Assembly (NCBI GenBank): GCA_904424815.1 | Contig: CAJGBI010000001.1 | Location: 1,078,508 to 1,142,507 of the forward strand | DNA: 64,000 nucleotides | Direction: 5' to 3' | Origin: Puniceicoccaceae bacterium Marseille-Q1082 | Lineage (GTDB): Bacteria; Verrucomicrobiota; Verrucomicrobiia; Opitutales; Intestinicryptomonadaceae | The notes under the pieces: generated by a model | Databases searched by the model: none | Seen by the model: only the letters and a program-made list of their open reading frames with translations | Told to the model about the DNA's origin: nothing | Shown here: positions 11,890 through 29,404 of the stretch, piece after piece | Position numbering within the stretch: position 1 is the stretch's first letter | Layout: the number at the start of each line of letters is the position of its first letter | Program-made: the position numbers and the translations under genes

Positions 11890-11912
11890 GCGGCAGGATT
11901 GGGCAGATTTTA
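11890..11912 (+). promoter_or_regulatory. Copy 1 of the 23-bp box, likely AraC-family binding site
   Basis: This 23-bp sequence, beginning GCGGCAGGATTGG and ending CAGATTTTA, is repeated without mismatch on the minus strand at 29404-29382. Here it lies just upstream of the AraC gene promoter and 244 bp before the cyclophilin-like gene. A TATAAT at 11915-11920 follows on the plus strand. A perfect 23-bp match between two regulatory regions is very unlikely by chance. Confidence 0.65.
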
Positions 11913-12000
11913 CATATAATCCTCCGGCGCGAAAAACTTTGGGAAACAGAACTCCCCGCGCCGGCTAAAAAAATATTTTTGGCGAGGCATTCCCCAAAGG

Positions 12001-12054
12001 AATGCTCGAGCATAAATTATAAGCATTTGCAATCCCGCAAAAAAATGCGATAAT
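12001..12054 (+). promoter_or_regulatory. Promoter with diverged LysR-type block (copy C)
   Basis: Contains TTATAAGCATTTGC and then CAAAAAAATGCGATAAT. The -35 TTTGCA (12026-12031) and -10 GATAAT (12049-12054) are 17 bp apart, the spacing also seen in copies A (14336) and B (18701). The upstream AGCATA...TATAAG part is shared but shorter. It would drive the cyclophilin-like gene. Confidence 0.6.
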
Positions 12055-12156
12055 CAAACCGCAAAGGCAAGGAGCTTGGACGGAGCGCGGTTTAACGCCG
12101 CGCGGCGCAATCCGGCAGTCCTGGCAATCCGAAACAAACCCTCAACCTAAGAAAAT

Positions 12157-12633
12157 ATGAAAAAAATATTCCAAATTTCCGCCGCCGTCGCCCTGGCGTT
12201 GGCGGCGGCGTTCGCGCCCGCGTCCGGGCTGTCGAAAACGGAAAACGATAAAAATACAAAGCAGATGAAAACCGATAAAATTAAACTGGCAATCAAAGGC
12301 GGCAGGACATTCACCGCGACTCTCGCGGACAATTCCTCCGCGCGCGCGCTGATGGAGCTTCTCGAAAAGGGCGACATCTCAATAGAAATGGAAGACTATG
12401 CCCGCATGGAAAAGGTCGGTCCGCTGGGCGCGAACCTGCCGAGAAACGACGAGCGGATTTCCACGGGACCCGGCGACCTGATTCTCTACCAGGGGCGCAA
12501 CCTCGTAATATATTACGCGCCCAATTCATGGAACTTCACCCGCCTCGGCAAAATAGACAACGCCACGCGCGACGATCTCGTCTCCGCGCTCGGAACGGGG
12601 AACGTCACCGTGACCCTCTCCGCGTGCCGATGA
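12157..12633 (+). CDS. Secreted cyclophilin-like fold protein
   Basis: 158 residues with a Sec-type signal (ISAAVALALAAAFAPASG). The mature domain looks like the bacterial cyclophilin-like family (TATLADNSSARALMELLEKGDISIEMEDY; GPLG..LPRND; GDLILYQGRNLVIYYAPNSWNFTRLGKI). Members of this family usually sit beside aldo/keto reductases, flavodoxins and LysR genes; their biochemical function is not established. The SD is weak. It is driven by promoter copy C and is convergent with the PepSY-like gene. Confidence 0.82.
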   Translation: MKKIFQISAAVALALAAAFAPASGLSKTENDKNTKQMKTDKIKLAIKGGRTFTATLADNSSARALMELLEKGDISIEMEDYARMEKVGPLGANLPRNDERISTGPGDLILYQGRNLVIYYAPNSWNFTRLGKIDNATRDDLVSALGTGNVTVTLSACR

Positions 12634-12725
12634 ATAAAAAATCAACCCGCGCGGCGCGCCGCCTTCCAAACTTGGAAAACCTCCTAAAAGCGCGCGGCAA
12701 AACTGCCGGCAGGTTTCTAATAAAA

Positions 12726-12753
12726 AAAGGGTTCCGCGCATGCGGAACCCTTT
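12726..12753. terminator. Bidirectional terminator
   Basis: Perfect 12-bp inverted repeat, AAAGGGTTCCGC and GCGGAACCCTTT, around the loop GCAT. It has an A-run on the left and a T-rich right flank. It lies between the convergent cyclophilin-like and PepSY-like genes and can serve both. Confidence 0.85.
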
Positions 12754-12772
12754 GCGCATTTTTAAAAGGCTG

Positions 12773-26808: not shown

Positions 26809-26823
26809 AAATTTTTCCTCCGT

Positions 26824-28377
26824 TTATATGCGGTTGTGGCTCGGATTGCCCTCCACGCAAATCGCGGCGACCGGCCGCGCGGGGCATAGGTTTTCGCACG
26901 CGCCGCAACCGATGCACCGCGCCACGTCCACCGTCGGTATCTTCAGCGATTTCGGATCCTTCGGGTCTTTGGCGACCATCTGTATGGCGCCCGTCGGGCA
27001 CTGGCGGAAACAGTTGTCGCACTGCATTCCGTCGGCGTTGACAATGCACCGCGAGGCCGTCCAAACGGCGCGCCCGATTTGCGTTGAAGCCTTTTCCTCC
27101 GGAGAAATCGGCAGTATCGCCCCCGCGGGGCACACTTTGGAGCACTCCACGCACTCTATCCTGCAATATCCGTTTTCGTAGGTCATCTCCGGCTGCATGA
27201 AGCCCGAGAGCGAGCGCGACGGGACGAGAACGCGCGACGGGCACGCCGAAACGCAGAGCTGGCACGCCGTGCACTTATCGGCGATATTCGCAATCCCTCC
27301 GGAGCCGGGGGGCGATATTTTAAACGCGCGCTCCGGCCTGCGCCTCGCCCGTATGGGGGCGAGCCCCCCGTCCACTTTCATCGTCTCGGCGGCGTCCGCG
27401 GCGGCTCCCCCCGCGAGCATAAAAAGCGTCGAGAAAAATCCCCTGCGCCCCCTTCGGAAAACCGCCGGAGGTTCTTTCTTCGCCGCGGAAAATTCCGCGC
27501 GCGCGCCCTCCGGACGCGCCGCCCTTTCCGCTTCCGCGCGTTTTGCGGCGGCCTTTTTTGCGAATGCGGGCGAATAGGAAATAGCGGATTTCCTGCAAAC
27601 GCCCACGCAGTCGAAGCAGGCGACGCACCTGGAATAGTCTATCGAGTGGTTCTTGTAGTCTATGCACTTGGATTTGCAATTCCGCGAACACAGGCTGCAC
27701 GAATTGCACTTAGAGGCGTCTATCACGGGTTTGAAGAGGGAGTATTTCGCGAAAAACCCGAGAACGGTTCCGACGGGGCATACGGTATTGCAATACGTCC
27801 TGCCGCCCTTCCACGCGAGAACTCCGACCACGGCGAGCGTCGCCGCGGCCGCGAGAAAAACCCCCGCCCCCTTGAACCATATTTCGGCGGGATAAAAGGC
27901 GTAGCCGCCCGCAGCCTCCGAAAGAGCGGCGAGGGCGTTGTTGCCGAGCGCCCACACCGGCGCCAAAAAGTTCGAGGCTATTCTGCCGTACGCGCTGTAA
28001 GGCGCGACGAGCGAGGCGACGGACAAAAGCCCGAGCGCCGCGAGCGCGACGAACGCGACGAGAAACCCCGCCCTGACAAGCGTCATCGCGGGAGCGTAGG
28101 CGAACCTGTTGCGCTTCCGCCTCCCCGCGGCGTGCGAAAATACGTCCTGCAACACGCCGAGCGGGCATATCACGGAACAGTAGATTCTGCCGAACAGGAG
28201 GGTCAGCAAAACGAGCCCCGCCACGACCGCGAAATTCGCCGCCAAAAGGGACGGCAAAAACTGGATCTTAGCCGTCCAGCCGAACCATTCCGCGGCGGTT
28301 CCCGTGAAGTCGAGGAACAAAAGCGTCACCGCCGAAAAAAACAGCACCGCCAACGCTATTCTTATTTTGCGCAACAT
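26824..28377 (-). CDS. NapH/YccM-like membrane polyferredoxin with internal Tat-like motif
   Basis: 517 residues. The N-terminal membrane part carries YCSVICPLG and YCNTVCPVG after helices, as in NapH/NosR proteins. Two cytoplasmic-type [4Fe-4S] segments follow (CNSCSLCSRNC; CVACFDCVGVC). About residues 310-330 read RRGRRGFFSTLFMLAGGAAADA, given here as a Tat-like stretch. After it come four more Cys clusters (CTACQLC, CVECSKVCP, CDNCFRQCP, CIGCGACENLCP). Gut Bacteroidota have homologues with this layout as I recall. Likely role: pass quinol electrons to the exported AKR-ferredoxin protein. Confidence 0.85.
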   Translation of the reverse strand: MLRKIRIALAVLFFSAVTLLFLDFTGTAAEWFGWTAKIQFLPSLLAANFAVVAGLVLLTLLFGRIYCSVICPLGVLQDVFSHAAGRRKRNRFAYAPAMTLVRAGFLVAFVALAALGLLSVASLVAPYSAYGRIASNFLAPVWALGNNALAALSEAAGGYAFYPAEIWFKGAGVFLAAAATLAVVGVLAWKGGRTYCNTVCPVGTVLGFFAKYSLFKPVIDASKCNSCSLCSRNCKSKCIDYKNHSIDYSRCVACFDCVGVCRKSAISYSPAFAKKAAAKRAEAERAARPEGARAEFSAAKKEPPAVFRRGRRGFFSTLFMLAGGAAADAAETMKVDGGLAPIRARRRPERAFKISPPGSGGIANIADKCTACQLCVSACPSRVLVPSRSLSGFMQPEMTYENGYCRIECVECSKVCPAGAILPISPEEKASTQIGRAVWTASRCIVNADGMQCDNCFRQCPTGAIQMVAKDPKDPKSLKIPTVDVARCIGCGACENLCPARPVAAICVEGNPSHNRI

Positions 28378-28417
28378 AAAAAAGCCTTTCCGATGGATTC
28401 GCGCCGCAAACGCGCGT

Positions 28418-29281
28418 TTATATGTCGTACCTTATGCCCGAAAGCCACTTCACCGTCGCGGGGTCGCGGTGGTCGAGAAAGCAGCTCTTTCCGGTGTCGA
28501 GAGCGGCGATTGCCGACATGTCCGAATCGTCGAGCGAGAACGAGAACACGTCGAAATTTTCGGCGATCCTCTCCTTCCTGACCGACTTGGGAATCGCCAC
28601 AACCCCCCTCTGTACGAGCCACCTCAGGACGACCTGCGCCACGCTCCTGCCGTATTTTTCGGCTATGCCCGAAAGCGCGGGATTTGAAAACAGCCCGTTC
28701 TTCCCCTCCGCAAACGGAGCCCACGATTCGATCTGCACGCCCCATTCGCGCATCAGTTTCTGGTAGGAAACCTGCTGGCAAAACGGGTTGGTCTCAACCT
28801 GGTTTACGGCGGGCGCGACATCGTTGTGGGCGATCAAATCGGCGAGTCGGTCGGGCTGGAAATTGCTGACGCCTATCGCGCGGATTTTGCCCTCCGCGCA
28901 GAGCTCCTCCATAGCGCGCCACGACCCGTAGACGTCCCCGAAGGGCTGGTGGATGAGGTACAAGTCCAAATAGTCGAGCCCGAGGCGGTCGAGCGACTTT
29001 TGGAACGCCGCCTTCGCCTTTTCGTAGCCGGCGTCCTGGATCCAAAGCTTGGTGGTGACAAAAAGCTCATTGCGGGGAACGCCGCTTCGGGCGATCGCCC
29101 TGCCGACCGCTTCCTCGTTCACATAGGCGGCCGCCGTGTCTATCGAGCGGTAGCCTATTTCGAGCGCGTCGGAAACCGCGCCCTCGCACGTTTTCGCGTC
29201 CTCCATCTGATAGACCCCGAACCCCAGAACGGGCATTTCAACCCCGTTGCTAAGCCTGACAGTTTTCTCTTCGCTTTTCAT
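28418..29281 (-). CDS. DkgA-like aldo/keto reductase
   Basis: 287 residues, cytoplasmic AKR of the 2,5-diketo-gluconate reductase/aldehyde reductase type. Visible are LGFGVYQ, the tetrad [10 protein letters not shown] (Asp, Tyr), TKLWI (Lys) and YLIHQPFG (His), then [13 protein letters not shown] and [13 protein letters not shown] for NADPH. It heads the minus-strand redox operon. Its promoter carries copy 2 of the 23-bp box also found at the AraC gene, paralleling E. coli YqhC control of dkgA. Confidence 0.92.
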
Positions 29282-29337
29282 GTCAATATCGTTGCGTTTT
29301 TATCGTTCAAAGCGGACAAGCCGCATTTTCGGAAAAT

Positions 29338-29367
29338 ATTATAAGCGAAAATCTCCCATTCGGTAAA
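29338..29367 (-). promoter_or_regulatory. Promoter of the DkgA-like redox operon
   Basis: Minus strand: -35 TTTACC (29367-29362), 18-bp spacer, -10 TATAAT (29343-29338). The 23-bp box ends 14 bp upstream of the -35, the usual place for an activator. Confidence 0.65.
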
Positions 29368-29381
29368 TATACAATTCAGCC

Positions 29382-29404
29382 TAAAATCTGCCCAATCCTG
29401 CCGC
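29382..29404 (-). promoter_or_regulatory. Copy 2 of the 23-bp box
   Basis: Exact minus-strand copy of 11890-11912, with no similarity beyond its edges. It is oriented toward the DkgA-like gene, with its near end 100 bp from the ATG. The likely binder is the AraC protein encoded at 10918-11796. Confidence 0.65.

Follow-up and report, generated by a model that had tools for sequence, protein, structure and literature searches.

The window analysed here is a stretch of 64,000 nucleotides from Puniceicoccaceae bacterium Marseille-Q1082 (Verrucomicrobiota, Opitutales), in which the 23-mer GCGGCAGGATTGGGCAGATTTTA is read twice: at 11890-11912 on the forward strand, upstream of a gene for an AraC-family regulator (araC), and at 29382-29404 on the reverse strand, upstream of an operon headed by an aldo/keto reductase (AKR) gene, AKR1. 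Judged from its sequence, the 23-mer looks like the strong, upstream half-site (half-site 1) of a two-half-site operator of YqhC-class regulators. We consider it probable, at roughly 0.8, that the complete operator activates the AKR1 operon, and that the araC copy sets the expression of araC itself. A parallel to the E. coli YqhC circuit had been proposed earlier for this DNA (the original prediction). The proposal is well supported with regard to the operator, its geometry, the link to AraC_N genes and the same architecture of the yqhD promoter, whereas at araC only one half of the operator is present, and the window AraC cannot be named as the sole regulator.

The two copies are reverse complements of each other without a mismatch, and no similarity extends beyond the 23 bp, as originally predicted: the AKR1 copy runs on into a second half-site (half-site 2) and a -35 element, and the araC copy does not. 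The predicted gaps agree with the sequence as well: one copy is 8 bp from TTGACT, the -35 of araC, and the other 14 bp from TTTACC, the -35 of AKR1. By base composition, about 9e-5 exact 23-mer pairs are expected in 64 kb, and none of 100 dinucleotide-shuffled windows matched the 23-mer at up to three mismatches. The genome-wide search that had been suggested as a check covered the 2,696,975 bases of the window's genome (G000; 3 contigs, 96.15% complete) and returned the two copies only, with no third at up to three mismatches.

The AKR1 promoter carries tandem half-sites in a 21-bp register adjoining the -35 element (Table 1), as does the E. coli yqhD promoter. When 20 candidate sites were aligned in this register, 15 contained a second block, whose terminal ATTTAC always falls at the same position, followed by a -10-like stretch; the five sites without it are those of the window araC and the G012 araC and three low-scoring sites of G000. 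The composite pattern gave 39 matches at up to two mismatches across 19 genomes of the family, against 9 for the reversed-pattern control. With at most one mismatch there were 16 matches (G000, 4; G007 and G012, 3 each; G008, G014 and G015, 2 each) and none in the other 13 genomes, and the six positive genomes are exactly those whose best AraC is at least 54% identical to that of the window (p = 3.7e-5). Since the pattern was written from sites in these six genomes, the presence half of this correlation is partly built in, and the absence half is not. Most of the 23 matches with two mismatches are probably due to chance, although two in G009 look like variants. The four operators of G000 precede the AKR1 operon, another AKR gene (C2:163,367), a CMD-cupin gene (C1:315,838) and a DUF362/flavodoxin cluster (C2:59,117), the last operator lying inside the longest reading frame, for which a later start was assumed. 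An unexpected target in G015 is a CbiM-like gene for cobalt uptake, which has a complete operator (L057:8541, +) 230 bp upstream. A half-site 1-like sequence at 37140 of the window was set aside, having neither half-site 2 nor TTTAC. The 21-mer GGCAGAACACGGCAGATTTAA, three mismatches from the half-site 1 pattern, occurs at G000:C1:966052-966072 and C1:1517109-1517129 and is perhaps a small repeat.

The predicted AraC regulator has Pfam matches to both AraC_N and HTH_18. Its upstream box was compared over 14 AraC loci, of which eight count in the comparison; those of G004, G005, G006, G009, G012 and G013 were checked separately. The box is found 88-113 bp ahead of the aligned araC start in four further genomes of the family, each with a TTGAC -35 on the araC side of the box; the AraC proteins concerned are 89% (G007), 62% (G008), 59% (G015) and 54% (G014) identical to the window AraC, and G014 and G015 belong to another genus. 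G012, with an AraC of 67% identity, keeps half-site 1 adjoining its araC -35. The idea of a box shared by araC and the operon holds in that the box is conserved upstream of these 54-89% identical orthologs, with the half-site in a fifth genome, but the box alone is one half-site. A cross-phylum matrix (described below) gave good matches near araC in G005 (29.9) and G013 (21.8) and weaker ones in G004 (13.9) and G006 (12.0, inside a called reading frame); in the araC stretch of G009 no score exceeded 6.6. There was no good box match upstream of the two AraC paralogs of G000 (66% and 45%) or of the second AraC of G015 (39%). The AraC reading frame of G004 (L199:8851-9342, -) encodes only 163 residues in this call (46.8% identity over 158 residues), and an operator-like stretch lies upstream of it at about L199:9529-9556.

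The same operator is found at AraC_N regulators far beyond this family. From a contig scan with nine AraC sequences, YqhC among them, we took the best 80 of 586 confirmed stretches, which represent 79 loci; 77 remained without two Opitutales rows, several of them close relatives (Pseudomonas, Rhizobium). The core AGGATYRKGCAA was present at up to one mismatch within 350 bp upstream of 67 of the 77 loci (46 exactly), and 74 of 77 single matches point one way. The corresponding counts were 3/77 downstream, 2/77 inside the gene and 0/77 at -3 kb, with a mean of 0.5 and a maximum of 2 in 20 shuffles; contig ends left a small number of control stretches truncated or without sequence (e.g. L074 and L117 at -3 kb, L087 downstream), which makes these counts slight underestimates. 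A further 29 AraC_N loci from the window's phylum had been held out (every locus returned except that of G000; some are close relatives). Among these the core was present, at up to one mismatch, upstream of 21 (12 exactly) and downstream of none, and the best matches were all in the expected orientation. It was found at none of the 30 best HTH_18 loci of the phylum, in about the same amount of DNA, although the lack of AraC_N was not individually checked for these loci. The phyla bearing the core at up to one mismatch are Pseudomonadota, Thermodesulfobacteriota, Cyanobacteriota, Planctomycetota, Actinomycetota and Bacillota, together with Verrucomicrobiota and Myxococcota (Nannocystis).

After removal of rows 80% alike, 44 of 66 sites remained and read GGAGGATTAGGCAAG...gGAGGATTG.GCTA.C, followed by TAT..T at the place of the -10. 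Their first six bases recur at exactly 21 bp, with 4.07 of 6 identical as compared with 0.64-2.0 at 27 other offsets. A simpler conserved feature, a GGCA..GGCA 10-bp repeat, was found upstream of only 9/79 loci, against 1, 2 and 4/79 in the controls; the 21-bp repeat and the core took its place. The literature search found no published consensus of the operator of YqhC or its family, although one may exist in Lee 2010 or Turner 2011, which lay outside the search; a literature search on the letters of the motif gave unrelated titles only, among the matches listed.

Regulators of this type in Pseudomonas, Rhizobium, Nostoc, Streptomyces, Paenibacillus and Singulisphaera share the operator core and register with the window but differ in their neighbours. 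Ten divergent genes examined with Pfam comprised three short-chain dehydrogenases/reductases, one zinc alcohol dehydrogenase, one major facilitator superfamily transporter, one AKR, one cupin, one DJ-1 protein and two without a match, and BLAST found an AKR-like divergent frame at 4 of the 79 loci (L089, L119, L124, L125). Relatives of the polyferredoxin and of the AKR-ferredoxin (Fd)-DUF1893 protein encoded in the window operon were absent from the locus DNA examined at all 77 non-Opitutales loci (E <= 1e-20), and this extension of the circuit is thus seen only in the Opitutales family.

In E. coli, YqhC is an aldehyde-responsive activator. A 37-position matrix built from the 44 sites, with E. 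coli excluded, ranked the yqhD promoter first among 11,930 positions of the 6-kb yqhC-yqhD-dkgA region (26.3; next best, 9.9; training median, 32.0). The half-sites found there, AGAAATAGGCAAG ... AGAAATGAGCATTGAGA, are 21 bp apart and adjoin the -35. By hand count, the register of our -35 and -10 is within a base of that of the yqhD -35 (TTGAGA) and -10 (CACAAT) given in an excerpt of PMC6115493, citing Lee 2010. According to excerpts of further reports, YqhC binds the yqhD promoter region in electrophoretic mobility shift assays (PMC8262776), has a single genomic SELEX (gSELEX) site, located in that region (PMC8249747), and binds the promoter directly (PMC5297802).

The window and E. coli systems therefore have in common an AraC_N regulator, a DkgA-like target (46% identity) and tandem half-sites 21 bp apart adjoining the -35. 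They differ in several respects: the window AraC is only 27% identical to YqhC and is encoded 17 kb from its putative target, whereas regulator and target are adjacent in E. coli; the window operon contains no YqhD-type alcohol dehydrogenase detectable with Pfam, and adds a membrane polyferredoxin and a twin-arginine AKR-Fd-DUF1893 protein; and the window's genome has two close regulators. The geometry also resembles that of araBAD, where AraC acts as a class II activator through the direct-repeat half-sites I1 and I2, 21 bp apart, the proximal one adjoining the -35. That system differs in the N-terminal domain of its regulator and in the half-site sequence, and there are no arabinose genes in the window system.

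The operator also follows the operon among relatives. The AKR-Fd-DUF1893 protein was matched in 8 of the 19 family genomes, its gene being split over two contig ends in G007 and cut by a contig end in G011. Upstream of the polyferredoxin/AKR-Fd genes, the operator is present in G000, G005, G007, G012, G014 and G015 and a variant in G009, i.e. in 7 of the 8, implying that operator and operon have remained together even in genomes where, as in the window, the regulator now lies apart from them. The araC gene itself is linked to the operon in three genomes. The gene order is araC - operator - CMD/cupin - AKR1 - polyferredoxin - AKR-Fd-DUF1893 in G015 and araC - operator - polyferredoxin - AKR-Fd-DUF1893 in G014, and in G005 a canonical operator separates araC from a divergent flavodoxin - DUF4405 protein - polyferredoxin - AKR-Fd-DUF1893 series. 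The predicted extension of the circuit to these two proteins is supported by such relatives, which carry araC directly beside the same genes. The operator lies upstream of the polyferredoxin in G012, with araC on a different contig, 0.6 kb upstream of a polyferredoxin in G007, and, as a variant, 165 bp upstream of the polyferredoxin in G009; none was found in the piece of the truncated G011 operon examined. A variant operator of G009 ending in ATTTAC, at L195:2144 (-), belongs to the gene of a YqhD-like dehydrogenase (27%; L195:814-1989) and suggests a drift of the operator together with a diverged AraC. Four genomes of the same class (G105, G130, G147 and G149) have the polyferredoxin/AKR-Fd pair with no core at up to one mismatch upstream in the stretches examined, the single core match of G130 being downstream of the pair, which indicates that the pair exists without this control. 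The genome collections were sampled and many of the relatives are fragmented assemblies; absence from such an assembly is weak evidence.

Sequence comparison by itself establishes the operator, its geometry and its association both with AraC_N genes and with the AKR1 operon. Binding by AraC, activation, an aldehyde signal and autoregulation are what we infer from it. A dimer of the regulator would bind the two direct-repeat half-sites, 21 bp apart, at the AKR1-polyferredoxin-(AKR-Fd-DUF1893)-nadD operon and, because the downstream half-site abuts the -35, would recruit RNA polymerase in the manner of a class II activator. By analogy with YqhC, the signal would be reactive aldehydes. At araC, the remaining upstream half-site, just upstream of the gene's own -35, would most likely set araC expression. 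We propose more tentatively, at somewhat less than even odds, that AraC_N regulators, which are widespread and mostly uncharacterised, share an operator, AGGATTRGGCAAG-N8-AGGATYGNGCTA, that hardly varies and keeps the -35 and -10 at set positions across about eight phyla, and that in Opitutales it has been rewired to an exported iron-sulphur AKR module consisting of the membrane polyferredoxin and the twin-arginine AKR-Fd-DUF1893 protein. If this is true, the Opitutales module would represent reductive aldehyde detoxification outside the cytoplasm, and with a cis code valid in Streptomyces, Nostoc and Verrucomicrobiota as well as in E. coli, the regulons of an entire branch could be read directly from sequence. 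For these Opitutales, such a code predicts a response that includes membrane and exported iron-sulphur reductases.

Several observations weigh against the main interpretation, in which the 23-mer is half of a YqhC-class operator. The E. coli site has been ascribed to a SoxS-like sequence and a 24-bp palindrome rather than to a direct repeat (excerpt of PMC6115493). The core was written after the 77 loci had been seen, which is the reason for testing the 29 held-out loci, and it is missing at up to one mismatch from the stretch scanned at 10/77 and 8/29 AraC_N loci (for two of the eight, less than 250 bp was available). When the matrix of the Opitutales sites was used by itself, no more than 15 of the 79 upstream regions scored above every one of 20 shuffles (3.8 expected). 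Only one of the ten divergent genes examined elsewhere is an AKR. Within the family, half-site 1 alone is not very specific (62 matches against 24 for the reversed pattern in the 19 genomes at up to three mismatches), and the G009 operator fits poorly, the cross-phylum matrix scoring best elsewhere in L193. In the window itself, half-site 2 is weak (TGAATTGTATAT) and is lacking from the araC copy. Finally, the operon could instead be served by the second close AraC of the genome, a paralog whose own start is not preceded by a box (at best 9 mismatches of 23).

This last point leads to an alternative that we regard as somewhat doubtful: the operon may be mainly under the control of the sister AraC at G000:C1:314,940, with the window AraC sharing the operator code and having its main role elsewhere. 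G000 encodes three AraC_N proteins at E <= 1e-15, and the sister is 66% identical to the window AraC. In a tree of 24 rows the sister groups with the AraC proteins of G014 and G015 (99/91), which adjoin this operon, and is thus a closer relative of the operon-linked regulators there than the window AraC, which groups with G007, G012 and G008; support along the latter group is uneven (100/99, 86/69, 92/75), and the placement of YqhC, a long branch, is unsure. A complete operator lies just downstream of the sister gene, before the CMD-cupin gene, and CMD-cupin heads the same operon in G015. However, at E <= 1e-30 only one AraC was found in G007 (86% complete) and one in G012, both of the window type, and both genomes carry the operator upstream of the polyferredoxin/AKR-Fd genes, so that the window type may suffice there; moreover, the window araC keeps the exact 23-mer. 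Since the DNA-binding parts of the two proteins are very similar, it is likely that they share control of the operon.

We find it unlikely that the araC copy is a relic of a formerly complete divergent promoter rather than autoregulatory. A complete operator does stand between the regulator and a divergent gene at the same place in G007, G008, G014 and G015, whereas in the window half-site 2, -35 and -10 of such a divergent promoter were not seen and only half-site 1 is present; likewise, the divergent cyclophilin-like gene lacks the complete operator that its G007 homolog (70%) has. Nevertheless, half-site 1 has been perfectly kept while its neighbour decayed, and G012, in which the gene upstream of araC is not divergent, still has it next to the araC -35. 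Its retention by araC in the window and in G012, with no divergent promoter seen, fits a role at the araC promoter itself, and yqhC has been suggested to modulate its own expression in E. coli (excerpt of PMC8262776). The araC copy is best read as a half operator, either autoregulatory or a relic.

It is highly improbable that the box is the site of a different factor or the mark of some special class of promoter. A LysR gene does lie nearby in the window (13390-14337), and G004 has a LysR relative, but across phyla the motif goes together with AraC_N genes, all 30 of the other HTH_18 loci lack it, and a 21-bp tandem repeat is typical of AraC-family dimers. A dispersed repeat, mobile element or recent functionless duplication has next to no probability: the two sites are identical over 23 bp, but no further copy at up to three mismatches was found in the genome sequence, and the box is kept, with substitutions, in another genus.

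Under the preferred reading, in which the complete operator activates the AKR1 operon, the products of the operon (Table 1) deserve comment. The supposed likeness of AKR1 to DkgA is supported by their 46% identity, which makes it a DkgA-type target, though its score against the NCBIfam DkgA equivalog model is 279.9 bits, under the cut-off of 425. The AKR-Fd-DUF1893 protein may be an exported iron-sulphur AKR: the five relatives examined also start with RRxFLK. The sequence FGC, found later in the protein, is lipobox-like. Four other AKR-Fd matches from the same class cover only about residues 7-459 of 595 and lack the DUF1893 part. The gene content suggests cytoplasmic aldehyde reduction combined with an exported reductase wired to the membrane.

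Table 1. Features of the window relevant to the operator and its two promoters
Feature	Position	Strand	Basis or remark
AraC_N + HTH_18 transcription regulator (YqhC class)	10918..11796	-	Pfam AraC_N 2e-39, HTH_18 3.9e-23; alignment with YqhC and family
araC -35, TTGACT (putative)	11876..11881	-	From sequence; TTGAC on same side of box in G007, G008, G014, G015, G012
23-mer at araC, half-site 1 only (core 11895-11906)	11890..11912	+	8 bp upstream of araC -35; position kept upstream of araC in 4 relatives
Divergent cyclophilin-like gene	12157..12633	+	Pfam Cyclophil_like2
NadD-like adenylyltransferase, last gene of apparent operon	24379..25011	-	Pfam CTP_transf_like
AKR-ferredoxin-DUF1893 fusion, N-terminal twin-arginine RRGFLK	25021..26808	-	
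Membrane polyferredoxin, Fer4 repeats, partial NapH/NapG resemblance	26824..28377	-	
AKR1, DkgA-like aldo/keto reductase	28418..29281	-	Pfam 2.3e-52; 46% to E. coli DkgA
AKR1 -10, TATAAT	29338..29343	-	Sequence
AKR1 -35, TTTACC	29362..29367	-	Same register as in relatives; abutted by half-site 2
Half-site 2, TGAATTGTATAT	29367..29378	-	Exactly 21 bp after half-site 1
23-mer at AKR1 operon, half-site 1 (core 29388-29399)	29382..29404	-	Exact match to araC copy

The gaps from AKR1 to the NadD-like gene are 40, 15 and 9 bp. The NadD-like protein scores under both relevant cut-offs (TIGR00482, 111.5 of 112.45 bits; PRK00071, 115.8 of 150), and a homolog occupies the same operon place in G012; it could possibly link aldehyde reduction to the supply of NAD. 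The cross-phylum matrix also scores 12.3 at 35453 of the window, inside the phosphoenolpyruvate carboxykinase gene, which we took as chance. Between the AKR1 operator and a reading frame of 731 residues without a Pfam match (29558-31753), a perfect 12-bp hairpin at 29500-29524, followed by T's on the reverse strand, is likely a terminator.

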